Translations under genes and position numbers: made by a program
Part shown: positions 1 to 15,779 of the stretch, one piece after another
Numbering within the stretch: position 1 is the first letter of the stretch
Layout of the letters: each line of letters opens with the position of its first letter
Origin: Alkalicoccus halolimnae
GTDB lineage: Bacteria; Bacillota; Bacilli; Bacillales; Salisediminibacteriaceae
Length of the DNA stretch: 64,000 nt
Assembly: GCF_008014775.2 (NCBI RefSeq)
Contig: NZ_CP144914.1
Span: 558,001-622,000 of the forward strand
Reading direction: 5' to 3'
Notes under the pieces: generated by a model
The model's database searches: none
Told to the model about the DNA's origin: nothing
Seen by the model: the letters and a program-made list of their open reading frames with translations, nothing else

Positions 1-47
1 TAAATAAGGGATCCGGAAAAACAAACGCAGAAGGAGAGAGGCAGACG

Positions 48-758
48 ATGGAAAAACCGATGATAGGGGTACTGCCTCTGTATGACAAAGAAAAAGAAAG
101 CTACTGGATGCTGCCGGGATACATGAAAGGCATTGAAGCAGCGGGCGGCATTCCGGTCATGCTGCCGCTGACGACGGATACGGACATCCTCGAAAAAACG
201 GCCCGCATGTTCGACGGGTTTCTTTTTACCGGAGGCCAGGATGTGAGCCCGACTTTCTACGGAGAAAAAATCGGAGAAGCATGCGGGGAAACGTGCATGG
301 AGCGGGACAGGATGGAGGCGGTTCTATTTGAAATAGTGAATGAACTCGACAAGCCCGTTTTCGGAATCTGCCGCGCTCTGCAGCTGTTTAATGTGCTGCT
401 CGGAGGCACGCTGTATCAGGACCTTCCCAGCGGACGGAAAACCAGCCTGATCGAGCATAAACAGAAACCGCCCTATGCAACGCCTGTGCACGAAGTGACA
501 ATCGAAGTAAATACGCTGCTCGGGAAGATTCTCCAGGAAAAGAAAATTGACGTGAACAGCTATCATCACCAGGGAATTAAGAAGAAAGCGGAAAAACTGC
601 AGCCGGCGGCCTATGCGGCTGACGGGCTCATGGAAGCTGCCGTGATGCCGGACCAGTCTTTTAATCTGGCCGTGCAGTGGCACCCGGAGTTCAGTTACGA
701 AAAGGACAAACAGAGCGTCAGGCTGTTTCAGGCGTTTGTTGACGCGTGCCGGAAGTAA
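48..758 (+). CDS. Class I glutamine amidotransferase-like hydrolase (peptidase C26, PuuD type)
   Basis: This 236-residue soluble protein belongs to the gamma-glutamyl-gamma-aminobutyrate hydrolase family, which cleaves gamma-glutamyl amides. Visible landmarks are the FTGGQDVSP oxyanion segment near residue 60, the nucleophile elbow GICRALQ near residue 106 (Cys nucleophile) and VQWHPEF near residue 211 giving the catalytic His and Glu, so the triad is complete. Length fits a stand-alone hydrolase with no synthetase partner. The ATG follows AAGGAGAGAGG closely. The physiological substrate (a gamma-glutamylated amine or peptide) cannot be read from the sequence; no polyamine genes lie next to it. 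Confidence 0.85.
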   Translation: MEKPMIGVLPLYDKEKESYWMLPGYMKGIEAAGGIPVMLPLTTDTDILEKTARMFDGFLFTGGQDVSPTFYGEKIGEACGETCMERDRMEAVLFEIVNELDKPVFGICRALQLFNVLLGGTLYQDLPSGRKTSLIEHKQKPPYATPVHEVTIEVNTLLGKILQEKKIDVNSYHHQGIKKKAEKLQPAAYAADGLMEAAVMPDQSFNLAVQWHPEFSYEKDKQSVRLFQAFVDACRK

Positions 759-938
759 ATATCAATTTTTGCTTGTTTTGTATCGTACTTAGATTCTTGT
801 CTGAACAGGTAATACGATTTTCAGCAGATGAAGAAACTGTAAATAGTTTCTGAGAAGCTGAGGCAGGCTAGCCCCCGGAAGGCGGAAGCAGCGAACCATA
901 TACCAATGCATAAAAAATACTTTATAACAGTCTGAAAA

Positions 939-960
939 CCGGCGGGAAATCTTCCGCCGG
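939..960 (-). terminator. Hairpin terminator of the tetR-MFS operon
   Basis: The arms CCGGCGG and CCGCCGG enclose an 8-base loop. Read on the minus strand the hairpin is followed by TTTTC, which suits the end of the MFS gene just upstream; it may also serve the convergent hydrolase gene. Confidence 0.7.
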
Positions 961-976
961 TTTAAACATGTTTCCT

Positions 977-2434
977 TTATGCTCCTGCTTTTTCTTCTAT
1001 TATCTGCTCTTCCTGTTTCGGAGATTTTAATAAGAGACTGAGGCCGAGAGCTATGAAAGCAAGAATTGTGCTTCCCATAAAGCCCCACTGGAAGCCGTTT
1101 ACTTCTGAAAGCAAGGCAGCAGTGTCTGCGGTCACACTTTCTCCGGGGGCATACACCTGGGAGCCGACAGCTACAAAGGTAATCAGCAGCGCCGTTCCGA
1201 TGGAGGCCGAAATCTGCTGAAGCGTATTAGCCATGGCCGAACCGTGCGCGTACCATTTTTCCGGGATCTGATTAAGTGCCGAAGTCATAACAGGCATGAG
1301 CGTAAGAGACAGCCCGAACATACGGATAGCATAGACTGTTGTTAAGAAAGCAAAAGACATATCGAGCGAGAGGCTGGTAAACATAAAAGTAGTTATCGTA
1401 ACGATCGTTAAGCCTGGAATGGCGAGAACTTTTGCTCCGTATTTATCAAACAGTGCGCCTGCGACCGGCGACATTATTCCGATAACTACAGCACCGGGAA
1501 GAAGCATCAATCCCGATTCGAGAGGAGTAAAGCCTAATACATTCTGTACAAACAGAGGCAGCATCGTTTCCGCTCCAATTAAGGATACCATCGCCACCAG
1601 TGTGATCCCGATAGAGAGGGTGAAGACAGGGAATTTAAAGATGCGAAATTCCAGAATCGGGCGATCGAGCCGCAGCTGCCTGCGGACAAAAAATCCGATA
1701 ATAACGGCCCCGATAATTACCATTGATACGACTGTTAAACTTGTAAAACCTTCCTTGGAAGCGACGCCGAAACCGTAGAGAAACGCTCCGAAACCGGCTG
1801 TGGACATTACGATGGAAGGAATATCAATCTTTGGCCTGCTCAGCTGCGTAACGTTCTGCATAAACAGGAATGCTACGAGAATCGTTACTGCTACTAACGG
1901 CAGTAATGCAATGAAAAGCGAACGCCACGGAAAGAATTCAAGGAGTACTCCGGAAAGGGTGGGCCCGATCGCCGGACCAAATGCAATGACTATTCCGAGA
2001 AGACCCATGGCTCTTCCGCGTTTTTCTACCGGAATGACGATTAGCAGCACTGTCATAAGCAGGGGAAGCATAATTCCGGATCCCGAGGCCTGTACGACGC
2101 GAGCTAAAAGCAGCATCGTGAAACTTTGAGAAAGGGCTGCAATGAGCGTGCCTGTGCCAAATAAAATTATCGCGGTTAAAAACAGCCGCCGCGTAGTGAA
2201 GCGTTCAATTAAGAAAGCGGAAATGGGGATCATAATCCCGTTGACCATTAAAAATACGGTCGTCAGCCACTGCACTTCCCCCTGGGTGATTCCGAAAACT
2301 TCCTGAATCGTCGGGAGGGCGGTGGCGAGGAGCGTCTCATTTGTAATTCCCATAAAGGCTCCAAGTAAAAGGGCACCGATCATGGCTGTTTTTTGTTTTT
2401 TCGTAATATCTGCTGGTTTTCTTATCTCACTCAT
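977..2434 (-). CDS. MFS drug efflux transporter, DHA2 (EmrB/QacA) family, 14 TM
   Basis: This 485-residue integral membrane protein has the length and hydrophobic pattern of 14-helix DHA2 proton/drug antiporters. The GIT-N-ETLLATALPTIQ segment in helix 1 and the VQASGSGIMLPLLMTVL segment (motif C region, about residue 110-125) are typical. I start it at 2434 rather than at the upstream ATG because AAAGGGG lies just before it and its ATGA overlaps the stop codon of the tetR-like gene. That overlap means translational coupling: the regulator is made first and the pump second. The likely role is export of a toxic amphiphile sensed by the TetR protein; the substrate is unknown. Confidence 0.88.
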   Translation of the reverse strand: MSEIRKPADITKKQKTAMIGALLLGAFMGITNETLLATALPTIQEVFGITQGEVQWLTTVFLMVNGIMIPISAFLIERFTTRRLFLTAIILFGTGTLIAALSQSFTMLLLARVVQASGSGIMLPLLMTVLLIVIPVEKRGRAMGLLGIVIAFGPAIGPTLSGVLLEFFPWRSLFIALLPLVAVTILVAFLFMQNVTQLSRPKIDIPSIVMSTAGFGAFLYGFGVASKEGFTSLTVVSMVIIGAVIIGFFVRRQLRLDRPILEFRIFKFPVFTLSIGITLVAMVSLIGAETMLPLFVQNVLGFTPLESGLMLLPGAVVIGIMSPVAGALFDKYGAKVLAIPGLTIVTITTFMFTSLSLDMSFAFLTTVYAIRMFGLSLTLMPVMTSALNQIPEKWYAHGSAMANTLQQISASIGTALLITFVAVGSQVYAPGESVTADTAALLSEVNGFQWGFMGSTILAFIALGLSLLLKSPKQEEQIIEEKAGA

Positions 2435-3252
2435 TGCTGTTCCCCTTTCCATGCTGCCCATTTGATACGCAGAGCGGTCACTTCACTTGTAAATGTCGTT
2501 TTATCTTCGAGGTATTTCAATAAAGCATCTGCAATAACGGGCCGCGGTGATTCCGTTTCCCACTCCTTAAGAATTAATGCGGTTATTTCCAATGAGTCTT
2601 CTTCCTGCATTTTTTGCTGTAAGGCAAGTAATTCCTTTCGAAGCTGAGGGAGGGTGATGGACGCTGTCTGCAGGGGAGGGAGGACGGAAGCGATCGTTCC
2701 CTCTTTGTTTACTACAGCCTGCAGAGCCTCGACTATAAACCGGCTCAAAATATCGATAGGAAGGTCCTGATTCCGCCAGATCATCAGGCGGAGGTAGCCA
2801 TGAATCATGCCGTCGGCCAGGACGAGAAGATCTTCGCCCATTTTCCGCCCTTTTTCTCCAAAAGCTTCGAGAATAGCTTCTTTCCGCCATTGAAATAAAT
2901 GATCATGCTGCTCTTCCAAATAAGTTACGACCGAACTGCTGCTGCCCGGAGGAAAGGCCAGAGTTAATTCGAAGATAAACGAACGATAGGAAACGGCCTG
3001 TGTGAACTCTTTTTGAATGCGCAGCTGCAGCTTTTCCAACGCATTTCTCCCCGCCGGCACCGGAGCAAAAAGTTCTTCGTAATATTTTTCCAGTAAAGCA
3101 AGAATCATTTCTTCCTTGGAATGAAAATACTTATAAAAGGCGCCTTTGGAAATGCCGCAGGCGGAAGTGATATTTTCAATGGAAGTGTTATGCATTCCCT
3201 GTTTTTGAAACAAAGCGGCTGCCTGCTCCAGAAGGTTTTCTTTTCGGGAAAT
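2431..3252 (-). CDS. TetR/AcrR family transcriptional regulator (ATT or TTG start)
   Basis: This is the regulator of the downstream efflux gene. The N-terminal helix-turn-helix reads NTSIENITSACGISKGAFYKYF, followed by a divergent C-terminal ligand-binding half. The first ATG/GTG/TTG in frame is a TTG at 3213, which would remove most of helix 1. The conserved TetR lead-in (KENLLEQAAALFQKQG) is encoded upstream up to an in-frame TGA at 3259-3261, and the only plausible initiator there is ATT at 3250-3252, about 10 bases after AAGGAG. I therefore give the longer form (273 residues) and regard the start as unsettled; a frameshift near the start is the alternative. The gene ends in an ATGA overlap with the transporter. 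Confidence 0.82.
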   Translation of the reverse strand: MSRKENLLEQAAALFQKQGMHNTSIENITSACGISKGAFYKYFHSKEEMILALLEKYYEELFAPVPAGRNALEKLQLRIQKEFTQAVSYRSFIFELTLAFPPGSSSSVVTYLEEQHDHLFQWRKEAILEAFGEKGRKMGEDLLVLADGMIHGYLRLMIWRNQDLPIDILSRFIVEALQAVVNKEGTIASVLPPLQTASITLPQLRKELLALQQKMQEEDSLEITALILKEWETESPRPVIADALLKYLEDKTTFTSEVTALRIKWAAWKGEQQ

Positions 3253-3270
3253 AAAGCATCAGCTCCTTAT

Positions 3271-3286
3271 ATGACTGTTCGGTCAT
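3271..3286. promoter_or_regulatory. Probable TetR operator upstream of the efflux operon
   Basis: ATGACTGTTCGGTCAT is an imperfect 16-bp palindrome (ATGAC...GTCAT arms) between the regulator's ribosome binding site and upstream DNA. TGAC-n-GGTCA sites are common for Bacillus TetR proteins, so autorepression of the tetR-MFS operon is inferred. Confidence 0.6.
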
Positions 3287-3396
3287 TATTAGTAAATGAA
3301 TAGTCAAAAAAACATCTTATCACTTCTTTTTTGTAAGTACAAGCATTTAAACAGAATAAAACCTGAAGCTTAATTCATGTTAAACACACAGCAAAA

Positions 3397-3424
3397 GGCA
3401 TGGAGAGTAATGGTTCTCCATGCC
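3397..3424 (-). terminator. Terminator after the 240-residue membrane protein gene
   Basis: GGCATGGAGA pairs with TCTCCATGCC around a short loop; on the minus strand the hairpin runs into TTTTGC. It lies 73 bases after the stop of the membrane protein gene. Confidence 0.75.
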
Positions 3425-3496
3425 CTGATCTGCTTTTTAAAATGGGGAAGCCTATCTGTTTCATTTCGTCTGCCTGTTTGCAGGTTTCCACACATT

Positions 3497-4219
3497 CTAC
3501 CATTCGAAAAAGAACTTCAGCGACATAGTGATTGTTGAGTAGATGAGCACCGCGCCGGCAAATGTCGGGAAGTGGGTTTCTTCATCACTCGGCAGTTCGT
3601 GCTTGAAGACGTTAAAAATCATAGCTCCCGCCACGAAAGCGAAGATGATGGATTTTAAAAGAGGGGTTAAGTTTACTGTCAGAGCGAATATCCAGCCTGC
3701 CACAATCCCTGCTCCGAGAACATACCTCCCGTATTTATTATATTCATACGGGAATTCCCGCCACAGGTCATGGGCTACCGCAATAAAATGAAGGCCGATC
3801 GCAAAACAGTAGAATAAAGCCTGAATACCGGAGACTTCGAACGATAAGACTACGAAGGAGACAAGCGCATTGTATAAAGCATAAAACGCAACAGCCGACC
3901 AGAAGGATGATATATGAGAGACATAGTTCTGCCGGATCAGAATCTGAATGCCAAGAAACACGACGACCCCGATGAGGCCGACAAAATAAATTTCAGATTC
4001 CATCGCTAAATGCAGATAAGGATCCGCAATATTCGTCTGTTCCGCATGCAGTGTAGGGAGGAGGTAGACAAATATATAAGAAACGGCAAGCCCTCCGGAG
4101 AATGAAAACCACTTCTTCCGCTTTACTTTTTCAGAAGGAATAAAGGCATTCGCCAGAAAGTGAATCGCGATAAAAACGACTCCAACGAGATATGGAATAA
4201 GTGCTGTCATCATAAACAA
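3497..4219 (-). CDS. Polytopic membrane protein, weakly ZIP-like, function unknown
   Basis: This 240-residue protein has about seven or eight hydrophobic helices and is monocistronic, with AAAGGA before the ATG and its own terminator. Two polar stretches inside the membrane region are notable: LHFIAVAHDLWREFPYEY around residue 145-160 and FKHELPSDEETHFP around residue 205-218. His/Glu/Asp clusters of that kind recall metal sites of ZIP-family transporters, but the canonical ZIP motif (HEIPHE) is not present, so metal transport is only a guess. No neighbouring gene suggests a role. Confidence 0.7.
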   Translation of the reverse strand: MFMMTALIPYLVGVVFIAIHFLANAFIPSEKVKRKKWFSFSGGLAVSYIFVYLLPTLHAEQTNIADPYLHLAMESEIYFVGLIGVVVFLGIQILIRQNYVSHISSFWSAVAFYALYNALVSFVVLSFEVSGIQALFYCFAIGLHFIAVAHDLWREFPYEYNKYGRYVLGAGIVAGWIFALTVNLTPLLKSIIFAFVAGAMIFNVFKHELPSDEETHFPTFAGAVLIYSTITMSLKFFFEW

Positions 4220-4770
4220 TCCTTTCGTCGGCCATAAGGACGGTTTTAAGGTGAAATACTAACTTTAATTATCTTATTATATAGTTTATCAGTGAAACAG
4301 GGGGAAAAACATGACGTGATTCATACTGTGCAGGAAATTTCCGGAGCAGCATCGCAGGAGGGAGACATGTTTTCGTAAAAATTAAGCCGGCTGAATATTA
4401 GAGGACGGGAAAGCATGTCTCTCTTCAGAAGAGCGTCTTGGATTCTTTCTTTTTAGTTTTGATTTCAGCTTTGATAAAGTCTGTTGTTAATAAATGCAGT
4501 TAACACCGCTTCCGCCGCCCGCCCGGAAATCTTCCGTTACCACTTCGACACTTTATTTTCAAAGCAGCCCGACGAAAAAGCTGAGTACACATTAAAATGT
4601 ATGCTCAGCTTGATGATGGATTATTTTGAATTTGCTTTCTTTCCCGGCTTCCCAGGAAGCAAAGGTGCGAATGATCGTTTTTTGTCAAATGTTTTCCGAG
4701 TAAAAAAGAAGTGAAGCTAAAATGTCCTGCAGAATTCTCATTTCCGATAACTCTCTATCAGGAGTATTAT
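4220..4770. other. Gene-free stretch with a repeat fragment and a terminator
   Basis: The stretch holds AAAGTCTGTTGTTAATAAATGCAG (4470-4493 region), matching the inverted right end of the mosaic repeat seen at 7690 and 21450, and a hairpin that ends the cyclic-di-GMP gene. An open frame at 4484-4714 begins inside the repeat, has no ribosome binding site and reads through the hairpin, so it is not called. Confidence 0.5.
4578..4611 (-). terminator. Terminator downstream of the LOV/GGDEF/EAL gene
   Basis: AAGCTGAG and CTCAGCTT form the base of a long hairpin with further pairing of ACATT and AATGT. On the minus strand it is followed by TTTTTCG. Confidence 0.65.
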
Positions 4771-7299
4771 TTAACGCTGACTCAAATCAGCAGATTCACA
4801 TGCAGTCAACATTTGAGTAAAGGAACTGGCAGTACACGGTTTATGAATAAAGTACCCCTGGGCTGAGTCGCACGTTTCCTCTTTTAAAAAGATCAATTGT
4901 TCCTCTGTTTCTACTCCTTCGGCAATAACTTTCATACCCAGGCTCTGTCCGAGGGAGATAATCGAGCGGGCAATTGAAGCGTTCACTTTGTCTTCATGGA
5001 CATTCGTCAAAAAGGACTGGTCTATTTTCAAAAAATCGACAGGAAAATTTTTTAAGTAGCTTAACGAGCAGAATCCAGTACCGAAATCATCAATTGAAAT
5101 ATGAATCCCCAATGCTTTTAACTGCTGCAGCTTTTCAAACGTTTCTGTGATATCACGCATAATACCGCTTTCCGTTAATTCAAGTTCCAGCCATTCTGCC
5201 TCAAGTCCCGAAACGTGTAATGCACGTTTGACCTGGTCTACTAAGTTTACCTGCTGAAACTGCCGGGCAGATAAATTAACGCTCATTATCATAGGAGGAT
5301 ATCCTTGCTCCTGCCATGCTTTATTTTGGTTACATGCCGTTTGCAGTACCCATTCTCCGATCGGAACAACCAGACCCGTCTCTTCTGCTAACGGGATAAA
5401 GGTGGAAGGGGAGATCAGGCCGTTTTCACCATCCGGCATACGTATAAGCGCTTCAGCACCATCAATTTTTCCCGTCTTCAGATTCATTTTCGCCTGATAG
5501 TGAAGAAGGAATTCATTATTCGTTAAACATTTCCTCATCGCCTCTTCGATAACCATTTTTTCAAGGACTTTTTCATTCATGGACGATGCAAACCATTGAA
5601 ACATATTTCGGCCTTGTTCTTTCGACCGGTACATCGCGATATCGGCGTTTTTAATTAAAGTATTACTGCTCGTACCATCCTCAGGGAAGAGGCTGACACC
5701 GATACTAATACTCAGGTTGAACATTTGTCCTTCTACATGAAAAGGGAGAAGCATGCTGTTTTGTAAATTCCGGCAGATGGCAGCCACTTCCTCTGTTGAA
5801 GTCGCAAGCGGTAAAAGTAAAATAAATTCATCTCCGCCCAGACGCGCTAAGGTGCTGCTCATATCAATTTTTTGTTTTAATCGCGAAGTAACTTCTTTTA
5901 ATATAATGTCACCAGCATTATGACCTAAAGAATCATTAATTATTTTAAATCGATCCAGGTCAATCATCATCACTGCTAAATGCTTACCATCCTGAGCTCT
6001 ATCTTTTAAACTTTCATTCAATCGTAAATGAAATAACCGACGATTCGGCAGAGCGGTAAGTGTGTCATAATAGGCCATTTTTTCAATTTGCTTTTCGGCT
6101 TCTCTGCGGTCTGTTACATCTCTTTGCAGACCAATATAATGCTCCACTCTGCCCTCCGTATCAAATAAAGGAGTTAATTGTAATTCGTTCCAAAAGGAGG
6201 CGCCGTTTTTTCGATAGTTTAATATTTCCGCAGTAATAGGTTTACCATTTAGGATGGCCTCTCTTATTTTTCGAACGGTTGCGGGATCGGTTTCTTCTCC
6301 CTGCAGTAATCTGCAGTTAAGGCCTAGTACTTCTGCCGGGGTATAACCGGTCACTTCATAAAAGTGCGGATTGGCATAGATAATGGGATGGCCGTGCTCC
6401 GCACTTGTAATGACGATGCTTGCGCTCATATTCTCTACAGAACTCGATAGTAATTTGTTTCTATTGGGTTTTTCCTTTAAAGAAACTCCGCGTACGCTAT
6501 AATCTGTTGTATCCCGAATGATCGCGAGGGCTGCCTGTTGTCCCTTAAAGAAAACAGGGGCAGCTTTCACTTCTACATCAAGGGTTTTCCCATCGGACCG
6601 GTAAAAAGACTCCCGCATAAAATAAGTATTCTCCAGCGAATTGCTTCCGGAAACCAGCATCATATTTTTGAAATCCTGAGGACGTTTTACATGGACAAAA
6701 TCAAAGATGTTTTTTCCGGTTAATAAACCGCTCTCTTCGCTCCCAAGCAACTTAGCTCCTTCATTGTTCGAATAAAGAATAGTGGCTTCATCCAAGAGGA
6801 AAATAGCTTCGGGCAATAAATTTGTTAATTGTTTGAAGAGTTTTTCCTGTTGTACCAGTTCCTTGAGAGAATGAGATAAATTATTTGTTAATTCCACCTG
6901 TTTTAACACGGTTTTTACCTTTTGCGGAATTAGATCTAACAGATTTTCATCTTTCATAATCCAGCCGGATGCACCTGCTGCCATCATACTGCCGGCATTC
7001 CGGACATTTGTATTTTCCTTCATCAGAATAAAGGGGACAGCTGACTGGTTGGAAGCTAAAATCTCAATAAGTTCTTTTCCATTCATATCAGTGAGGAAAT
7101 AATCCAATACAAGAAGACAGTCTTTCTTTTCTTCTACCTGCTCGATGGTTTCTACACCACTCGATACACCACTGACGGAAAAACCGGCGTTTTTCAGTTC
7201 TTTCTGAATTCGTTTATTTAATTCCAGATCTTTCTGTACGACGATGACATGATGACGTTGATTACCGATTGGTTCCAGTTCATTATTGATCACGTTCAT
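4771..7299 (-). CDS. REC-PAS-LOV-GGDEF-EAL protein, probable blue-light-regulated cyclic-di-GMP enzyme
   Basis: Domains of this 842-residue soluble protein, in order: a response-regulator receiver (about 17-135, acceptor Asp66 in LVLDYF); a PAS domain (about 155-265); a second PAS domain (about 290-400) with the full LOV signature GLNCRLLQG; a GGDEF domain (about 410-570) with intact GGDEF; and an EAL domain (about 580-830) with [26 protein letters not shown] and LKIDQSF all present. In the LOV domain the photoactive Cys329 and the flavin contacts Asn328, Arg330, Gln333, Asn361, Asn371 and Gln392 are conserved. The allosteric RxxD site before GGDEF is missing (DMSS). Both output domains look catalytically competent. 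I chose the start at 7299, after GAGGAG, although the spacing is only two bases; an ATG 18 codons upstream has no ribosome binding site. No kinase gene is nearby to phosphorylate the receiver. Confidence 0.9.
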
Positions 7300-8201
7300 C
7301 TCTCCTCGTCTTAAACGTTTGATGAAACATAACTCCACTTTAAAGTTAAGCATTGTAATGATGAGGTGGGTATCTCAGAAGCTTGTGGTATTTTTTAGCT
7401 GTTCGAAAACTTTATAACTGTACAGCAGATTCTCAGCTTCTGCTTTTCATCTTAAATCTGATTAAAAAGCGGTCCCGGACGGCGGGTATTTCAAACAGCT
7501 GATTTGTTCACTATAGAGTAAATATTAACGTCTATTTGAAAACTCTGCGTTCCAATGTGTATTGAAATATTTATTATTCATCTTGCATAATCATACCATA
7601 CTTTTCCAATAAGTGGTATAAATTTTACTTCTTTTGTCCTATTTTTCGTTGAAATTTTGTCCTGTTGTTAATGTTTTCACCAAGAATTTATAAAAAAGCT
7701 GTGTTGAAGTCTGTTTTTGATAAATATAGAAAACTTAGCTTAGCCCTCCCATGGAGGAGATTTCCGGGTGGGCTGCGGCCTGCGAATTCACAAATCTACT
7801 TCTTCCCCGGGCACGTTTCCGCTTCGTTTTGAAGAACCTGCTTCTTTCTTAGAAGGAAGAGATGGCTTCGTATTTCTACCGTAAGCTGGAGGGCACATGG
7901 GGCACTCCGGGGCGATAGAGGACGACCCCGGCCCGACTTCAGGGAGGAAGAGATCAGCTGAGGCCGTCCCTGCGCCCCCATAGAAACGAAAGCGGCTGGT
8001 TACAGAAGCGGAGACTAATTATTAAGTTCAACCTATATAGCCAAAAGATCATCCTATATAATTGACAATTATACATACATTATTTTCGGAATAATCAGAA
8101 AAATAATGGAATATAGAGTAAGATATAAGTATATAAAGCAGGCAGGAGAAAAAGACCCGGCTGTAAGACCGATATGAAAGCCTGAAAACAGGAGGTGTCA
8201 T
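7300..8201. other. Gene-free stretch between divergent genes
   Basis: The first 390 bases are AT-rich and must hold the promoter of the cyclic-di-GMP gene, but I see no convincing -35/-10 pair. A mosaic repeat follows (7689-7995). Near 8078-8108 an inverted repeat (CATTATTTTC ... GAAAAATAATG) sits upstream of the ABC permease and could be an operator. Confidence 0.45.
7689..7995 (+). repeat. Mosaic intergenic repeat, copy 1
   Basis: The left part (AAGCTGTGTTGAAGTCTGT...GAAAACTTAGCTT, and CCCCGGGCACGTTTCCGCTTCG) is the reverse complement of the repeat ending at 21490. The right part (ACCGTAAGCTGGAGGGCACATGGGG ... AGCTGAGGCCGTCCC ... CCCATAGAAACGAAAGC) matches the copies at 25570 and 34365. 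Boundaries are approximate. Confidence 0.65.
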
Positions 8202-10520
8202 ATGTATTACAGGATAATTCGTAATGACATTTTAAAGAGTAAACTCGTATCGCTGACGACAATGATGTTTGTAGCAGCCGCGGCGATGCTTGTTTCTCTG
8301 ACGGCTATACTCGTTGTAAATCTTTCAGGCGCAATAGATACACTTATGACAGAAGCCAAGACTCCACATTTTATGCAGATGCACTCAGGCGAAATTGATA
8401 CGGAGCGGCTCACGTCTTTTGCAGAGCAGAACAGCCGGGTCGATGAATTCCAGGTACTTGAATTCCTGAACGTGGAAGGTGCAGAGATAGTATTTAATGA
8501 AACATCGCTGGTAGATAATGTTCAGGACAACGGCTTCTCTGTGCAGAGTGAAAAATTTGATTTTCTTCTGGATCTTGATGGAAACGTGATAGAAGTGGAC
8601 GACGGCGAACTTTATGTGCCAATATCCTACATGAAAGACAATACGACAGAGGTTGGAGATGAAGCAGTCATTGGCGGACAGGAGTTTACTGTTGCAGGGT
8701 TTCTCCGCGATTCGCAGATGAATTCCACCCTCTCCTCCTCCAAACGTTTTCTTGTCAGTGAAAATGATTTTGCAGAGATACAGGACTTTGGGAGTATGGA
8801 GTATCTGATTGAGTTTCGATTAAAGAATTTAGAAGCACTCGGAGAATTTGAATCGGACTACGTCTCTGCCGGACTTGAAGCAAACGGACCGACGATTACG
8901 TATCCGCTTTTCCGAACGATTAACGCCATTTCGGACGGGATGATGATAGCCGTTATCCTGCTTATAAGCGGACTCGTCGTTGCTGTTTCATTTATGTGCA
9001 TACGCTTTACACTGCTTGCGAAAATTGAGGATGACTACCGCGAAATAGGAGTGATGAAAGCATTAGGGCTGCGTGTATCTGACATAAAGAAGATCTATCT
9101 TGCCAAATATGCAGCAATTGCGGCAGCAGGAAGTCTTCTCGGACTGGCTCTTTCCTTTCTCTTTAAAGGCATGCTCCTTGAAAATATAAGGCTTTATATG
9201 GGGGAGAGCGGAAATTCATCTATGGCTCTGCTTTTCGGTATGATCGGTATCCTGCTTGTTTTCCTTGCCATAATCGGTTATGTAAGCGGAGTACTGAGGC
9301 GCTTCCGGAAAATTTCGGCGGCAGAAGCGATCCTCTTTGGCAGCTCGACGGAGAAGTCCAAAGATGGAAGACTTTTTTTCCTGAGGAGGAACAGGCTGTT
9401 AGACACAAATGTTTTTCTCGGAATGAAAGATGTTTTCGCACGAAAAAGAATTTACGCTACGATGCTTCTCGTTCTTGTGATATCTTCGTTTATCATTATT
9501 GTTCCTCAAAACCTTTACAATACGATTTCTGCCAAAAGCTTTATCACGTATATGGGTATTGGAGACAGCGACATGCGCATTGACATCCAGCAGACTGATA
9601 ATATTTCGGGAAAAACGGCGGAGGTTGCTGAAACGATGGAGAGCGACCGTGATATTGCAGAATTTGTGGCTCTGACAACAAGATCATTTAATGTAAAGAT
9701 GGACGACGGAGTGATTGAAAATATAAATGTTGAACTCGGGGACCATTCGATCTTCCCTATAACGTACTTGGAAGGAAGAGCGCCTGAGGGAGAAGAGGAA
9801 ATTGCCCTTTCGACGATAAACGCAGATGAGTTAGGTAAAGATGCAGGGGAGTCTATTACACTGGAAATTGCAGGAGAAGAAGAAGAGTTTCTTGTTAGCG
9901 GCGTTTACTCTGATGTTACGAACGGAGGGAAAACCGCAAAGGCGGCCTTCTCAGACAATTCGGAGGACATCATGTGGAGTGTTATATCCTTAGAACTTGC
10001 GGATAATTCTCAAGTCCCCGGCAAGGTATCGGAATACGGAGAGAGATATGAGTATGCAAAGGTATCGAGCATAGATCAATATATTAATCAGACATTCGGC
10101 TCGTTAATAAACGCTGTCAGAACAGCCTCCGTTGCCGCCACTGCCATTGCGCTTATTATCACGGTACTCATTACACTGCTGTTTATGAAAATGCTTGTGA
10201 CAAAGGACAGGTTTTCCATTTCTATTATGAAAGCGGTCGGTTTTACAAATTCCGATATCATGCTGCAGTATGTTTCCCGTTCCGGTTTTGTATTGATCGC
10301 CGGAATTGTTCTCGGCACCGTTTTGGCAAACACGCTCGGAGAGTTTCTTGCGGGAGCGGTTATTTCTTCATTTGGAGCCTCGGCATTTCATTTTGCCATT
10401 AACCCGGTTTCCGCTTATCTCCTATCTCCACTGATGATGGGTGGCGCAGTACTTATTGCAACAATCATAGGGACATCCCGGGCCGGGAAAATAAAAATAT
10501 CTGAAAACATAAAGGAGTAG
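8202..10520 (+). CDS. FtsX-like ABC transporter permease (two FtsX domains)
   Basis: This 772-residue membrane subunit starts after AGGAGGTGTCAT. An N-terminal helix is followed by an extracytoplasmic domain of about 200 residues and three helices at about 245-370 (first FtsX domain, with IEDDYREIGVMKALGL). A linker, a second anchor near 415-435 and a second extracellular domain lead to three more helices at about 645-760 (KDRFSISIMKAVGF). This duplicated layout is that of MacB/SalY-type permeases that use mechanotransmission to export or displace peptides, antibiotics or lipoproteins. The ATPase gene follows 3 bases later. Substrate unknown. Confidence 0.88.
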   Translation: MYYRIIRNDILKSKLVSLTTMMFVAAAAMLVSLTAILVVNLSGAIDTLMTEAKTPHFMQMHSGEIDTERLTSFAEQNSRVDEFQVLEFLNVEGAEIVFNETSLVDNVQDNGFSVQSEKFDFLLDLDGNVIEVDDGELYVPISYMKDNTTEVGDEAVIGGQEFTVAGFLRDSQMNSTLSSSKRFLVSENDFAEIQDFGSMEYLIEFRLKNLEALGEFESDYVSAGLEANGPTITYPLFRTINAISDGMMIAVILLISGLVVAVSFMCIRFTLLAKIEDDYREIGVMKALGLRVSDIKKIYLAKYAAIAAAGSLLGLALSFLFKGMLLENIRLYMGESGNSSMALLFGMIGILLVFLAIIGYVSGVLRRFRKISAAEAILFGSSTEKSKDGRLFFLRRNRLLDTNVFLGMKDVFARKRIYATMLLVLVISSFIIIVPQNLYNTISAKSFITYMGIGDSDMRIDIQQTDNISGKTAEVAETMESDRDIAEFVALTTRSFNVKMDDGVIENINVELGDHSIFPITYLEGRAPEGEEEIALSTINADELGKDAGESITLEIAGEEEEFLVSGVYSDVTNGGKTAKAAFSDNSEDIMWSVISLELADNSQVPGKVSEYGERYEYAKVSSIDQYINQTFGSLINAVRTASVAATAIALIITVLITLLFMKMLVTKDRFSISIMKAVGFTNSDIMLQYVSRSGFVLIAGIVLGTVLANTLGEFLAGAVISSFGASAFHFAINPVSAYLLSPLMMGGAVLIATIIGTSRAGKIKISENIKE

Positions 10521-10523
10521 CTT

Positions 10524-11282
10524 ATGGATAAAGTTATTACTGCTGAAAAAATAGTGAAATCGTTCGGAGAAGCTGCTGAAAAGCGTAATGTTTTAGACAA
10601 AGTTTCTGTTGAAATAGCAGAGGGAGAATTCGTGGCCGTTATGGGACCTTCCGGGTCAGGGAAATCGACGCTCATGTTTGCGTTAAGCGGAATGGACGAT
10701 ATTGATTTAGGAAAGGTTGCGTTTGAAGGCAGGGATTTAGTGTCGCTCAAAAATAATGAACTTGCCGACATGCGCAGGACAAAAATGGGCTTCGTTTTTC
10801 AACAGCCGACGTTCCTGCAGAACCTGAATATCCTCGATAACATTATTCTCCCGTCCATGCGGGATAATAAAAAAGACCGCCCGAAAATTATAGAAAAAGC
10901 CCGAAAACTTATGAAAGAGGTGGGCATATCGGAGCTGGAGAACCGCGGTATAAAAAAAGTTTCGGGAGGCCAGCTTCAACGTGCGGGAATATGCCGGGCT
11001 CTTATGAGTAATCCGAAAATTATCTTCGGAGACGAACCTACAGGTGCACTCAATTCCAAATCTGCGGAGGAAATTATGAATTTATTTTCAGAAATCAACA
11101 AGGAAGGGACGGCCGTTATGATTGTTACCCACGATGCGAAGATTGCTGCGAGATCGGAACGCATTATGTTTATGGTCGATGGAAAAATCGTCCACGAGCT
11201 TACGCTTTCAAAGTATGAAGGAGCAGATATAGACAGGAGAGTGGAAAAGGTAACAGGCAAGATGCTGGAGCTCGGAATATAA
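10524..11282 (+). CDS. ABC transporter ATP-binding protein, MacB/LolD type
   Basis: This 252-residue ATPase pairs with the preceding permease, only three bases separating them, with AAAGGAG overlapping the permease stop. Visible motifs are Walker A GPSGSGKST (about 42-50), Q-loop FVFQQP, signature VSGGQLQRAG, Walker B IIFGDEPTGAL and the H-loop VTHD. The order and spacing are those of the MacB/LolD/FtsE subclass that works with FtsX-type permeases. It drives export or extraction from the membrane using ATP on the cytoplasmic face. Confidence 0.92.
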   Translation: MDKVITAEKIVKSFGEAAEKRNVLDKVSVEIAEGEFVAVMGPSGSGKSTLMFALSGMDDIDLGKVAFEGRDLVSLKNNELADMRRTKMGFVFQQPTFLQNLNILDNIILPSMRDNKKDRPKIIEKARKLMKEVGISELENRGIKKVSGGQLQRAGICRALMSNPKIIFGDEPTGALNSKSAEEIMNLFSEINKEGTAVMIVTHDAKIAARSERIMFMVDGKIVHELTLSKYEGADIDRRVEKVTGKMLELGI

Positions 11283-11300
11283 TATTCCTAATTCGAGATA
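11283..11300. promoter_or_regulatory. MhqR-like operator
   Basis: TATTCCTAATTCGAGATA, followed by TTTT, matches the MhqR box described for Bacillus subtilis (recalled consensus TATCTCGAATTCGAGATA) at about 14 of 18 positions; the right half-site is perfect. It lies just upstream of the -35 of the MarR gene, so quinone-responsive autoregulation is inferred. Confidence 0.55.
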
Positions 11301-11306
11301 TTTTTA

Positions 11307-11335
11307 TTGACTCCTAATCAATTAACATGTAAAGT
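11307..11335 (+). promoter_or_regulatory. SigA-type promoter of the MarR gene
   Basis: TTGACT and TAAAGT are separated by exactly 17 bases and precede the MarR gene by about 30 bases. Confidence 0.6.
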
Positions 11336-11362
11336 GATAGTTGAGAAAGGGAGTGAGTGCCA

Positions 11363-11800
11363 TTGAAAAAACATACGATCGGCTCACTGATCTGGCTGCG
11401 GATTACCCGTTTTACCCAGCAGAGCAACCTGCTCTCCAATGACTTTCTGAAGCAGTTTGCTGTTACGGCGGCGCAGTTTGACGTACTCAACCAGATTTCC
11501 ACTTATCAGCCGGTCACGCAGGGTCTGCTGGCGGAAAAAGTAACCGTATCGGAGGGCGGTATTTCGCGTATGCTCACGAGGCTTGAGAAAGATGGGTATA
11601 TCCATCGCAGGCAGGACTGGAAAACCAAGTGGATTACATTGACTGCCGCAGGAGAAGAAAAAATGGAAGAAGTTTTTGAACATCAGCTCGCTTTCCAGAC
11701 GACTCTTGTTAATGAATGCCTTACAGAAGAAGAGCAGAAAACACTTTATAACCTTATGACAAAGCTGCAGAAAAATACTGAAAAGAAAGCAAGAAGTTAG
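11363..11800 (+). CDS. MarR family transcriptional regulator
   Basis: This winged-helix regulator of 145 residues has the recognition region [27 protein letters not shown] followed by a wing ([13 protein letters not shown]). I prefer the TTG at 11363 because AAGGGAG lies nine bases before it; the GTG at 11357 has a spacing of only three. Its promoter carries an MhqR-like operator, and the next gene on the same strand is a ring-cleavage dioxygenase. That is the gene type controlled by MhqR in B. subtilis, so a role in sensing quinones or catechols is plausible. Its stop codon TAG is shared with the first bases of the repeat at 11799, so the C-terminus may have been trimmed by that insertion. 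Confidence 0.82.
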
Positions 11801-12165
11801 GCTCTGTTAAAGCTCCGTGTTGTTATTGGAGTGCCTGCGGCTCCTCCGCCTGCCGCGGAGAAAGCCTTCAGCTCTCCCTCCCTGTCGTCCGGAAGGATCT
11901 TCCCGCTTTCTTTTTCCGCAGGCGTCTTGAAAAATCGCCTTGGCACCGGTTTTTACCTTGGTACCTTCTTGATTCAATCAGCGGGCCTCCTGTATTGGAA
12001 AATCAAAGCGAAGCGGAAACCGGCGGACGCCTGTGGAAGAAGGAGATTGGAAGATCCCGCAGGGCGTAAGCCCGAGGAAGCTGGAAAGCTCCTCCACGGC
12101 AAGCCTGCCGGGTTGAAGCGAAGTTTTCTTAAATATATCAACAACAGAATGCTTTAGCAGAGTCT
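11799..12165 (+). repeat. Mosaic repeat with inverted ends (MITE-like), about 367 bp
   Basis: The left end AGGCTCTGTTAAAGC is inverted at the right end as GCTTTAGCAGAGTCT. Inside are GGAGTGCCTGCGGCTCCTCC, a palindromic segment also present at 15880 and 39440, and TTGAAGCGAAGTTTTCTT near the right end. It carries no open frame of its own and separates the MarR gene from the dioxygenase gene. Confidence 0.75.
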
Positions 12166-12210
12166 ATTTTTTATTATCACTTGATTAGTAAAATGAAGGA
12201 GGAAGAAAAA

Positions 12211-13152
12211 ATGAATCATATTCCAGGACATCATCACATTTCCATGATTACTAAAAACGCGCGGGAAAACAATCACTTTTACCGGGACGTTCTCGGCATG
12301 CGCCGCGTGAAAGTTACGGTAAACCAGGACGACCCATCCATGTATCACTTATTTTACGGCGATAAAACAGGGAGCCCGGGCACGGAACTGTCCTTTTTTG
12401 AAATCCCTCCGGCAGGGAGAACCCACCGCGGTACGAACGCAATTACGAGAATCGGCCTGCTCGTTCCTTCTAAAGACAGCCTGCACTATTGGAAGGCGCG
12501 TTTGGAGGAGAATGAGGTGTACCATGATGAAATCAGCACTTATGCCGGCCGCCAGGCTTTAAAACTGGAGGATCCGGAAGGGCTCCGTCTCGTACTGCTC
12601 GCAGCAGGTGGAGAAAAAGTGAAGCACTGGGAAACGTGGGAAAAGTCCGATGTCCCTGATGAACATCAGATTCAGGGAATGGGACCCGTGGAAATGACCG
12701 TAAAAAGAATGGACAAACTGGCAGAGACGCTCACCGGGATTTTCGGCTACACAGAAAAAAGCCGCTCGGGTGATGAAGCGGTATATCAGTCTGTGGAAGG
12801 AGAAGCATTCGGTGAAATCGTCGTAAAATACGAGGATGGTCCGTCTGAAAAACCGGGGCGCGGCAGCATTCATCATTTAGCGATTCGTGTGAAAGATGAG
12901 GCGGAACTCGCCTACTGGGAAGAGCAGGTGAAGAAAAAAGGCTTTCAGCATTCGGGGATCGTCGACCGTTTCTATTTTAAAAGCCTGTATTTCCGGGAAT
13001 CAAACGGAATTCTTTTCGAAATTGCCACCGACGGACCCGGCTTTACAATTGACGGCGACGTGGAGAGCCTGGGAGAACAGCTGGACCTGCCGCCATTTCT
13101 CGAAGAGCGCCGCGAAGAAATTGAAGCTAAGCTGGCGCCTATTGAAGGGTAG
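12211..13152 (+). CDS. Ring-cleavage dioxygenase / glyoxalase family protein (MhqA/MhqO type)
   Basis: This 313-residue cytoplasmic protein consists of two vicinal-oxygen-chelate modules, the first beginning GHHHISMITKNARENNHFY and the second at about residue 160 with GPVEMTV. A late segment, HHLAIRVKDEAEL, carries another His. This is the layout of B. subtilis MhqA/MhqO, which are tied to resistance to methylhydroquinone and catechol. The metal ligands expected at the start of each beta-alpha-beta unit (His in HHHIS and HHLAI, Glu in the FFEIP and LFEIA strands) are present. The ATG follows AAGGAGG; the frame stays open upstream to a TTG at 12181 but that has no ribosome binding site. Confidence 0.83.
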   Translation: MNHIPGHHHISMITKNARENNHFYRDVLGMRRVKVTVNQDDPSMYHLFYGDKTGSPGTELSFFEIPPAGRTHRGTNAITRIGLLVPSKDSLHYWKARLEENEVYHDEISTYAGRQALKLEDPEGLRLVLLAAGGEKVKHWETWEKSDVPDEHQIQGMGPVEMTVKRMDKLAETLTGIFGYTEKSRSGDEAVYQSVEGEAFGEIVVKYEDGPSEKPGRGSIHHLAIRVKDEAELAYWEEQVKKKGFQHSGIVDRFYFKSLYFRESNGILFEIATDGPGFTIDGDVESLGEQLDLPPFLEERREEIEAKLAPIEG

Positions 13153-13177
13153 TTAGTTTATCAGTAATTATAAACTG

Positions 13178-13212
13178 AGCCGCATTCAGAAAAATTCTGA
13201 ATGCGGCTTTTA
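13178..13212 (+). terminator. Terminator after the dioxygenase gene
   Basis: AGCCGCATTCAGA and TCTGAATGCGGCT form a perfect 13-bp stem with a 5-base loop, followed by TTTT. Confidence 0.85.
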
Positions 13213-13279
13213 AGCCTGTACGGCGTGGAAGGCAGCCTTATTGGACGTTCCCCGCCGGTTAAAATTACACAAAGTAGAG

Positions 13280-13308
13280 TTGACAGAATATTTCATCCGT
13301 TGTACATT
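13280..13308 (+). promoter_or_regulatory. SigA-type promoter upstream of the GH16 gene
   Basis: TTGACA and TACATT are spaced by 17 bases. The distance to the start codon is about 300 bases, giving a long leader. Confidence 0.6.
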
Positions 13309-13310
13309 AT

Positions 13311-13326
13311 ACGAAAGCGCTTTCGT
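13311..13326. promoter_or_regulatory. LacI/CcpA-type operator (cre-like palindrome)
   Basis: ACGAAAGCGCTTTCGT is a perfect 16-bp palindrome with the CG core of LacI-family sites, directly after the -10. A protein bound here would block transcription start. A second, weaker site (ACGAAATCGGTTTAGT) lies at about 13468-13483. It may be a CcpA site or the operator of a dedicated glucan regulator. Confidence 0.65.
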
Positions 13327-13607
13327 TTTTTGTTTTCAATCTTCTGATTTTTTAATAAAATAAGATAGGTTCTACACAGTAAAGTGGGAAAAAGACAGGA
13401 AGGACCCCGACCTAACTTCTGGGAATGAAAAGAACGCTTATTGTCACAATTTATTTTTTGCATATTTACGAAATCGGTTTAGTAAGATGAGAAGGCTGAT
13501 GCGGCACGGTGAGATTGTACTAGTTTGTGGAGGTGATACATAGGGGGGAGCCGTTGTGGAAGCTTAATGGAATAATACAAATTCATTGGAACTGAAAGGA
13601 GAATGTT

Positions 13608-15779
13608 ATGAAGAAAACAATGGTTAGCACGCTGTTTATCTCGGCGCTTGCTGTGCCGGCAGCTGCAGGGGCGGAGGAGCAGGAACCGAACTGGCAGATG
13701 ACGTGGCAGGACGAGTTTGAGGGAGAGGAACTTGATACGTCCAAGTGGCGCATCGATAACGGTAACGGATTTTATGACGGAGATGAATGGGTGGAAGGAT
13801 GGGGCAACAATGAGCTGCAGTCCTATCAGGAAGATAACGTTAAAGTCCAGGACGGAAAACTGATTCTCGAAGCCCGTGAGGAATCCGTCAGTGACGAGGA
13901 GGGTGATTATGAATATACCTCCGGAAAAGTACTGACAGATGAATTGTTCAGCCAGGCTTACGGCCGTTTCGAAGCAAGCATGAAACTTCCCGAGGGGCAG
14001 GGATACTGGCCGGCGTTCTGGATGATGCCGGAAGATGATATTTACGGAGGCTGGGCTGCTTCCGGTGAAATCGACATTATGGAAAACCGCGGCTCGGAAA
14101 CCGATAAAGTCGGCGCAGCAATTCACTACGGGGATCTCTGGCCGGCCAATACGTACAGCGAAGAAAGCTACCAGTTCCCGGAAGGACAGTCCACCACCGA
14201 TTTTAATGAGTATGCGATCGAGTGGGAACCGGGCGAAATCCGCTGGTACGTCAACGATGAACTTTATTCCACGAAAACCGAATGGGGCACGAAGTACGGA
14301 GAGTACCCGGCACCATTTGACCAGGAGTTCCATATGATTCTGAACCTGGCTGTCGGCGGCTGGTACGGCGGAGAGCCGGATGAAACTACAGAATTCCCCG
14401 GTCAGGTGGAAGTCGATTATGTCCGTGTATATGAAGACGCTGACGCCGAGCATCCTCCGCCGGGCGAATGGATCGACCCGGATGAAAACGATCAGCCGGA
14501 AGACGATGGACCAGCTCCGGTAGATGAAACGAAAAATTGGCAGGAAATCGGAGAAAACCTGATTGAAGACGGCACGTTTGATGAAACAACAGAATTTGGT
14601 GATGAAAACGACAGTCTCGTCTGGAACGTGTTTAACATGGCCGACCACGATCCGAACGGCGGAACCGCTGAATTTTCGATCACAGATAATGAACTGCAGG
14701 CAGCCGTCAACCAGGTCGGCTGGGACTGGTACCATATTCAGCTCATGCAGGACGTGTCAGTGCCGGCGGGAACATACAAACTGGAATTTGACATGCGCTC
14801 GGACGAAGCACGCACGATCCGCACAGAACTGACCGGAGCCGGCTACCGCCTGCAGGAGTTCGAGGTAGGGGAAGAGATGGAAACGTACGAAACGTACATT
14901 GAAGCTTCCGAGCCCGGAGATTATTCGCTGCTGTTTGGTTTAGGCAAAGGCATCGATGATCCGGAAATGGAGGTTCCTTATAATATTCATCTTGATAACG
15001 TCCGTCTCGTAGAAGTCGGCGTTGACGGGGAATCCACTGGCCCAGAAGATCCGAACGAATCGGATAACTGGGTCGAAGCAGGAGAAAACCTGATCGAAGA
15101 CGGTACATTTGTTGAAACAACAGAATTCGGTGATGAAAACGACAGTCTCGTCTGGAACGTGTTTAACATGGGAGAGTTCGAACAGAATGCCGGATCGGCT
15201 GATTTTTCCATCGTGGATAACGAGCTTCAGGCCGTTATAAACCAGGTCGGCTGGGAGTGGTGGCATATCCAGTTTATGCAGGACGTGATGGTTCCGGAAG
15301 GCATTTATAAAGTTGCCTTTGACATGCGTTCCGAAGAAGAGCGGAACGTGAGCGTTGAACTGGCCGGATCCGGCACAGGCATCCATGCATTCGACGTTGG
15401 AAACGAGATGAGAACGTACGAAACATATATTAACGTCACGAATCCGGGAGAATTTAACCTTATGTTCGGCCTCGGACGCGACGGAGATGACCCGGAACTT
15501 GACGTCCCTTATACCGTCCATCTCGATAACGTGAGACTTGTTGCAGTGGAACAGGGAGAAGAAGATGGACAGGAAGAAGACGCGGAGGAGCCTGTCAGCG
15601 GCAAACCTTCCCACCCGGGAAAAGGCGCTCCATTTTCTGTCGATGAAGACGGCAGTCTCTATCTGGAAACCGGGAATGGAAAACGTATCGACATCCCGGC
15701 AGGAAAAGGAAGCCCACACACGGAGCATCCCGGCAAAGGCAGCAAGCCGGACAATGCTGATCGGGGTAATAACCGATAA
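13608..15779 (+). CDS. Secreted GH16 endo-beta-glucanase (laminarinase type) with two C-terminal carbohydrate-binding modules
   Basis: This 723-residue exported enzyme has a signal peptide (residues 1-22, ending AAAGA) and a GH16 domain at about 28-275. The catalytic motif is ASGEIDIMENRG with nucleophile Glu154, Asp156 and acid/base Glu159; WPAFWMMP and GWGNNELQSY are further GH16 landmarks. Two tandem, strongly similar modules of about 155 residues follow, each beginning GENLIEDGTF and ending HLDNVRLV; they look like CBM4/9-type glucan-binding domains. A Gly/Pro/Lys-rich tail (HPGKGAPF, HPGKGSKP) ends the protein. It is very acidic, as expected for a halophile exoenzyme. Likely activity is cleavage of beta-1,3 or beta-1,3-1,4 glucans. 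GAAAGGAG precedes the ATG. Confidence 0.9.
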   Translation: MKKTMVSTLFISALAVPAAAGAEEQEPNWQMTWQDEFEGEELDTSKWRIDNGNGFYDGDEWVEGWGNNELQSYQEDNVKVQDGKLILEAREESVSDEEGDYEYTSGKVLTDELFSQAYGRFEASMKLPEGQGYWPAFWMMPEDDIYGGWAASGEIDIMENRGSETDKVGAAIHYGDLWPANTYSEESYQFPEGQSTTDFNEYAIEWEPGEIRWYVNDELYSTKTEWGTKYGEYPAPFDQEFHMILNLAVGGWYGGEPDETTEFPGQVEVDYVRVYEDADAEHPPPGEWIDPDENDQPEDDGPAPVDETKNWQEIGENLIEDGTFDETTEFGDENDSLVWNVFNMADHDPNGGTAEFSITDNELQAAVNQVGWDWYHIQLMQDVSVPAGTYKLEFDMRSDEARTIRTELTGAGYRLQEFEVGEEMETYETYIEASEPGDYSLLFGLGKGIDDPEMEVPYNIHLDNVRLVEVGVDGESTGPEDPNESDNWVEAGENLIEDGTFVETTEFGDENDSLVWNVFNMGEFEQNAGSADFSIVDNELQAVINQVGWEWWHIQFMQDVMVPEGIYKVAFDMRSEEERNVSVELAGSGTGIHAFDVGNEMRTYETYINVTNPGEFNLMFGLGRDGDDPELDVPYTVHLDNVRLVAVEQGEEDGQEEDAEEPVSGKPSHPGKGAPFSVDEDGSLYLETGNGKRIDIPAGKGSPHTEHPGKGSKPDNADRGNNR

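Follow-up and report, generated by a model that had tools for sequence, protein, structure and literature searches.

LOV proteins with cyclic di-GMP outputs

Blue-light control of cyclic di-GMP (c-di-GMP) has been described for proteins in which a LOV domain is joined to a GGDEF domain or to GGDEF and EAL domains, and GGDEF or GGDEF plus EAL outputs are reported for approximately 18% of 1390 bacterial LOV proteins (PMC4844311). In SL2, a LOV-GGDEF-EAL protein, c-di-GMP is described as being broken down in light (PMC8846402), and the LOV-GGDEF fragment of a LOV-GGDEF-EAL protein of Mesorhizobium is described as a light-repressed cyclase (PMC9098866). Light-activated LOV-GGDEF cyclases have been grouped by linker length, the 21-residue members being activated approximately 15-fold by blue light and the 35-residue members far more strongly (PMC10396304). 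For a long-linker LOV-GGDEF enzyme, tight inhibition in the dark was linked to its I-site (PMC12805367).

Here we describe a gene of Alkalicoccus halolimnae (assembly GCF_008014775.2), found in a 64,000-nucleotide stretch of contig NZ_CP144914.1 (positions 558,001 to 622,000), which was analysed as a whole and is called the window below. Its product is best read as one more LOV-GGDEF-EAL protein, a kind already known, in which the receiver is degenerate. The papers listed for Alkalicoccus with LOV were, judged by titles and summaries, unrelated.

Gene and domain architecture

The original prediction, made from the DNA letters, placed a chain of receiver (REC), PAS, LOV, GGDEF and EAL domains at 4771..7299. 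The open reading frame is intact, the Pfam domains are in place, and every residue or motif that had been named (Asp66, Asn328, Cys329, Arg330, Gln333, Asn361, Asn371, Gln392, GGDEF at 488 and EAL at 616) is correctly numbered. The features of the gene are as follows.

4771..7299, minus strand: REC-PAS-LOV-GGDEF-EAL gene, a single intact ORF of 842 codons (842 aa)
6931..7248, minus strand: receiver domain, degenerate (pseudo-receiver by its residues), residues 18-123; Pfam PF00072 and residue check
7231..7236, minus strand: Gln22-Lys23 codons, in place of the acidic (Mg-binding) pair
7102..7104, minus strand: Asp66 codon, phosphoacceptor position kept in the alignment
7018..7020, minus strand: Lys94 codon, in place of a conserved Thr
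6505..6852, minus strand: first PAS domain (PAS1), residues ~150-265, ends approximate; Pfam PAS_8 at 154-202, model strands to 263
6109..6438, minus strand: LOV domain, residues 288-397; Pfam PAS at 288-395 and PAS_9 at 294-397, PDB matches
6313..6315, minus strand: codon of the predicted adduct-forming Cys329 in GLNCRLLQG; residue check and motif search
6058..6120, minus strand: LOV-GGDEF linker, D394 to L414, 21 residues; length class as described in PMC10396304
5605..6075, minus strand: GGDEF domain, residues 409-565; GGDEF motif kept, I-site absent
4837..5541, minus strand: EAL domain, residues 587-821; catalytic residues kept

The ORF list offers an alternative upstream ATG at 7353. The start at 7299 agrees with the closest relatives, P0003 (843 aa), P0004 (832 aa) and P0005 (847 aa), since these begin at a similar distance ahead of their receivers. 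The database copy of the window protein (P0002) has 840 aa. Pfam placed Response_reg at 18-123, PAS_9 at 294-397, GGDEF at 409-565 and EAL at 587-821, all above the cut-off, with E values of 8.2e-12 for the receiver, 1.2e-49 for GGDEF and 6.8e-71 for EAL; the GGDEF, EAL and LOV values put the predicted assignments well beyond chance. An AlphaFold model built on 30 aligned sequences had a mean pLDDT of 88.5 and a pTM of 0.50. Foldseek searches with this model retrieved, among others, DosP, PA0861 and the LOV-activated cyclase 8c05; the query-normalised TM-scores of these whole-model matches were low, so that they back single domains only.

Receiver domain

The receiver was aligned with those of P0003, P0004, P0005, P0012 and P0016. 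Three of the five catalytic residues are replaced in the window protein: the acidic pair, Glu-Asp in all five relatives, is Gln22-Lys23, and the Thr shared by all five is Lys94. The adjoining residue is Glu95, at which the relatives have Ala or Gly, and Asp66 and Lys116 are retained. A receiver that lacks at least one of the five residues has been defined as a pseudo-receiver (PMC12632262), and judged by its residues the window receiver is one; under the same five-residue criterion it does not qualify as phosphorylatable. In the original prediction Asp66 stood for a phosphorelay input. Asp66 by itself does not make a receiver, and with Gln22-Lys23 and Lys94 in place of needed residues this claim is not supported.

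All five residues are kept in 21 of 23 comparable proteins, the three closest relatives among them. This set comprises 22 LOV-motif proteins and P0005; P0034, whose receiver match is C-terminal and weak (29.0 bits vs a cut-off of 30.2), was left out. The two exceptions are P0035, with His for one residue of the acidic pair, and P0114, which lacks one acidic residue as well as the Asp, the Thr and the Lys. P0114 has the order LOV-PAS-GGDEF-EAL; its N-terminal region aligns with receivers, and at E 0.001 Pfam assigns no receiver to it. Given three of five residues replaced here and the conservation in the 21 proteins, phosphorylation of the window receiver appears unlikely, and the ancestors of the protein probably had a phosphorylatable one.

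It is very unlikely that the receiver still works, taking phosphate from a histidine kinase at Asp66 so that phosphate and light both set the c-di-GMP output. Besides the two retained residues, such a role would fit the Pfam score of 45.7 bits (cut-off 30.2) and the good confidence of the model, in which seven of ten blocks over residues 21-120 have a pLDDT of 91-96 and three of 80-88. The three replacements, Glu95 and the 21 proteins with complete sets argue against it, as does the neighbourhood, where Pfam found no kinase family in the eight ORFs scanned; window positions 1-14000 contain 25 ORFs of at least 80 aa, mostly overlapping frames.

Rates of change by domain

Unique changes in the window protein and its sister P0003 were counted with P0004, P0005, P0012 and P0016 as outgroups. 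The tests are uncorrected for multiple testing and rest on few sequences, P0003 and P0005 being single sequences from one source ('lgn'); the direction for REC was the same throughout. With P0004, the window protein and P0003 had 24 vs 10 changes in REC (chi2 5.8), 29 vs 11 in PAS1 (chi2 8.1), 13 vs 10 in LOV, 9 vs 9 in GGDEF and 28 vs 22 in EAL; all non-REC positions pooled gave 79 vs 52 (chi2 5.6), with PAS1 as the main contributor. The counts with P0005 were 25 vs 11 in REC (chi2 5.4), 24 vs 13 in PAS1 (chi2 3.3), 10 vs 7 in LOV, 14 vs 6 in GGDEF (chi2 3.2) and 26 vs 27 in EAL. P0012 gave 16 vs 9 in REC (chi2 2.0), 12 vs 8 in LOV, 6 vs 4 in GGDEF and 16 vs 15 in EAL, and P0016 gave 21 vs 6 in REC (chi2 8.3), 14 vs 8 in LOV (chi2 1.6), 7 vs 3 in GGDEF (chi2 1.6) and 18 vs 9 in EAL (chi2 3.0). 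REC and PAS1 have changed faster than in P0003, and LOV, GGDEF and EAL not significantly so; the signal is modest.

These counts bear on a second reading of the receiver, as a pseudo-receiver in which the changed residues are adaptive and serve another kind of signal input, through binding of a protein partner or of a small-molecule ligand. The domain is of full length, with all 119 positions of residues 16-134 aligning with P0003, P0004 and P0005, and its fold is modelled confidently. There are also precedents: for WspR, a receiver-GGDEF protein, a mode of action independent of phosphorylation has been proposed (PMC2270323), and binding of c-di-GMP is reported for the pseudo-receiver of the kinase ShkA (PMC7010744). 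Change is raised in PAS1 as well as in REC, a pattern expected under relaxed constraint, and an adapted input domain is considered unlikely.

LOV domain and first PAS domain

The second PAS domain carries the complete LOV signature GxNCRxLQG with the adduct cysteine (Cys329 in GLNCRLLQG), and the flavin-contact positions Asn328, Arg330, Gln333, Asn361, Asn371 and Gln392 of the last strand are all present. In the alignment, the cysteine and every one of these contacts also occur in P0003, P0004, P0012 and P0016. With E values up to 0.001, residues 288-406 matched 163 distinct PDB sequences; among the best 60 of these are phototropins, YtvA, aureochrome and histidine kinases activated by blue light. 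The best match is chain 9vf7_A, labelled histidine kinase (E=8.8e-34); some rows carry the labels histidine kinase, PAS/PAC sensor or sensory box, without the word LOV. On sequence grounds, the second PAS domain is a canonical LOV domain, as had been proposed, and it is predicted to bind flavin; light is a likely input to the protein. For PAS1, residues 140-284 gave three PDB matches up to E=1, none labelled LOV, the best being a 'Sensor protein' at 0.00078.

The domain might instead mainly sense redox state or oxygen through its flavin, or be a PAS domain with a structural role, with little effect of light in the cell. The genome encodes a second LOV protein, the LOV-STAS protein L058, possibly the main receptor for light, and P0005 is without the cysteine and yet keeps the equivalents of Gln333, Asn361, Asn371 and Gln392, so that an adduct-free role may exist within this small group. 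In the window protein, as in P0003, P0004, P0012 and P0016, the named photochemical residues are all kept, and a role apart from light is judged unlikely. The excess of LOV changes in P0005 over P0004 was not significant (11 vs 5, chi2 2.3; 12 vs 6, chi2 2.0).

GGDEF and EAL domains and the linker

Both output domains had been predicted to keep their catalytic motifs, and the positions concerned were all found in the alignment: the GGDEF motif (G488-F492) with the metal and GTP residues D447 and N455, and in EAL E616-R620, N675, E707, D737-D738, K758, E794 and E797. The EAL positions are those of the catalytic set ExLxR, N, E, DDFGTG, K and E. Compared with the three closest relatives, the GGDEF domain is 65-77% identical and the EAL domain 66-68%. 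The I-site RxxD of GGDEF domains is a site of product inhibition and is dispensable for activity. Its absence from the window protein, also predicted at the outset, is seen as D479 and S482 at positions where P0004 has R and D.

If the receiver had become a sensor that works without phosphate, of c-di-GMP for instance, it could provide product feedback in place of the missing I-site. P0003 and P0005 lack the I-site too and have normal receivers, which counts against such feedback, and the idea seems highly improbable. If it were true, a small clade would swap inputs on one output, the window protein having kept light and lost phosphate, and P0005 having kept phosphate and lost the LOV cysteine.

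With D394 (Asp of the D(I/V)(T/S) motif) as its first residue and L414 (Leu of DxLT) as its last, the linker is 21 residues long. The LOV cysteine and GGDEF lie 159 residues apart. Of the 34 LOV-motif proteins among the 120 matches listed (own copy included), 20 have exactly this spacing, the window protein and 19 others, so the LOV-GGDEF register is a common one. With a linker of the short class and no I-site, very strong on-off switching at this GGDEF domain would not be expected.

Occurrence among homologues and in the host family

The homologue search scored 7995 proteins, of which 6970 passed the threshold and 120 matches are listed. The motif GxNCRxxQ occurs in 34 of these 120, own copy included, and by motif and precomputed Pfam domains 23 of the 120, again with the own copy, combine it with a receiver, GGDEF and EAL; proteins named Pseudomonas, Aquibacillus and Oculatella are among them. 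The design had been called unusual. In view of these 23 proteins, and of the approximately 18% of bacterial LOV proteins given above (PMC4844311), this was overstated. A search with residues 1-405 gave P0003 alone, besides the own copy, at >50% identity and 90% coverage among the matches listed. It missed P0004 and P0005, so the listings are incomplete and the occurrence figures are lower bounds.

Within the order, 397 genomes were searched with the N-terminal 405 aa (four candidates scored per genome), and 51 of them, own included, gave a match. The listed matches outside the own genome all begin at residue 148 or later, none covering the receiver; the ORF L062 from this search has a receiver of its own and resembles P0016. 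The whole protein matched 53 of 60 relatives at 1e-100, mostly over GGDEF-EAL among the matches listed. A scan of genome contigs with the window protein gave four loci, three cyanobacterial (residues 398-831) and one from Sporolactobacillus (154-831).

Locally the design is rare. An exact-signature pattern, which degenerate LOV domains would escape, found 25 LOV motif places in 21 of 35 genomes of the host family, own included, and the reversed pattern gave zero in all 35. According to Pfam, 22 of these ORFs are LOV-STAS and two LOV-GGDEF (L036 and L043), and one is the window gene; no second gene of its type was found with the LOV pattern in the 35 genomes. The expectation that YtvA-type proteins prevail nearby is thus borne out. 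L036 and L043 are short proteins of two congeners (G003 and G002, respectively) with SGDEF for GGDEF. The two LOV motif places of the own genome are the window gene and the LOV-STAS gene L058.

Locus

Three further features lie at or around the gene.

4315..8059, no strand: stretch of 3745 bases holding the gene; the corresponding site of one congener lacks it and has 168 bases
7697..7870, plus strand: dispersed intergenic repeat, one copy lying upstream of the gene; ends approximate, by eye
4467..4532, minus strand: repeat core in a partial or diverged copy, across the gene from the copy above; ends by eye

The congener site was found by blastn of window positions 1-14000 against contig G001:C18 (L103). 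The locus there is rearranged relative to the window, and the adjoining FtsX-type permease matches over residues 1-339 only. In a second congener the flanks of the gene site lie on short separate contigs. The GC content of the gene (0.41) is mildly low, the lowest of 26 long window ORFs (mean 0.478, sd 0.038, own included). Recent import and loss in congeners are equally possible explanations of the empty site.

The repeat core AGATTTCCGGGYGGGC occurs at window positions 4512-4532 and 7758-7778, inverted and flanking the gene. A mobile element carrying the gene was considered and rejected, as the core is found at 22 places of the genome at up to one mismatch (none with the reversed pattern), without a tie to the gene; the repeat is approximately 150 bases long (by eye, 15 of the 22 places compared). 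Further along the window, positions 13608-15779 of the plus strand encode a glycosyl hydrolase family 16 protein (Pfam) with an apparent signal peptide and, by eye, two similar repeats in the C-terminal half.

Four c-di-GMP-I riboswitches above the cut-off are present in the own genome (G000:C1:325903-325992, 1051997-1052082, 1300032-1300118 and 2430233-2430321), and PilZ gave no match there. The last riboswitch ends nine bases ahead of an ORF with SLH (S-layer) and YusW-like domains.

Proposed mode of action

The protein is probably a soluble and dimeric blue-light receptor that sets c-di-GMP, with light as its working input and a receiver that would no longer be phosphorylated. Blue light would lead to a flavin-Cys329 adduct in the LOV domain, and the resulting change would pass through the linker, presumably helical, to GGDEF-EAL and shift the balance of synthesis and breakdown. 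The receiver, without accepting phosphate, may be a dimer or scaffold part or may be decaying, and PAS1 could add a signal to that of light.

As to the direction, there is a slight lean to lower c-di-GMP through breakdown in blue light, because the SL2 and Mesorhizobium precedents stem from EAL-containing proteins. Net synthesis in light is possible as well, since the protein has an intact GGDEF motif and PMC10396304 describes its LOV-GGDEF enzymes as cyclases activated by light.

If this is right, a multi-input enzyme has dropped one input and kept its output, and P0005 has seemingly dropped the other. The two proteins would then make a simple test of how a receiver and a LOV domain are wired in series to one GGDEF-EAL unit. 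A c-di-GMP light switch would also be added in a Bacillaceae host that has c-di-GMP riboswitches and no PilZ match.

Comparison with related systems

As a type of photoreceptor, the window protein is ordinary. The closest relatives, P0003 (65% identity), P0004 of Halobacillus seohaensis (58%) and P0005 (57%), share its domain order (Pfam domains checked in P0003 and P0005) and align with it over 97-98% of the length; they differ in having receivers with all five residues. P0004 also has the I-site. P0005 has D-A-K for N-C-R in the LOV signature, together with the four other flavin contacts named above and a complete receiver. The order receiver, LOV, GGDEF, EAL is shared by P0016 of Aquibacillus halophilus and by P0012, both with a C-terminal extension, which in P0016 ends in PilZ; unlike the window protein, the two are without PAS1 and have SGDEF for GGDEF. 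P0082 (Oculatella) and P0035 have the same domain kinds in a chain of approximately 850 aa, in the order REC-LOV-PAS-GGDEF-EAL; here LOV stands ahead of the other PAS domain and does not adjoin GGDEF, the Cys-GGDEF distances being 289 and 288 residues, respectively.

Among the described systems, SL2 of Synechococcus elongatus has a canonical LOV domain with GGDEF and EAL and blue-light-dependent c-di-GMP turnover; the comparison is by description only, and the account of SL2 in PMC8846402 mentions neither a receiver nor an extra PAS domain. The LadC enzymes (LOV-GGDEF; structure 8c05, retrieved with the window protein both by sequence and by fold) share the LOV-GGDEF unit and, in their short-linker members, the 21-residue linker, whereas EAL, receiver and PAS1 are absent from them as described in PMC10396304. 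YtvA has in common the LOV domain, and its LOV-STAS type is represented in the own genome and at 21 further LOV places of the family; its output is a STAS domain, without the c-di-GMP domains of the window protein.
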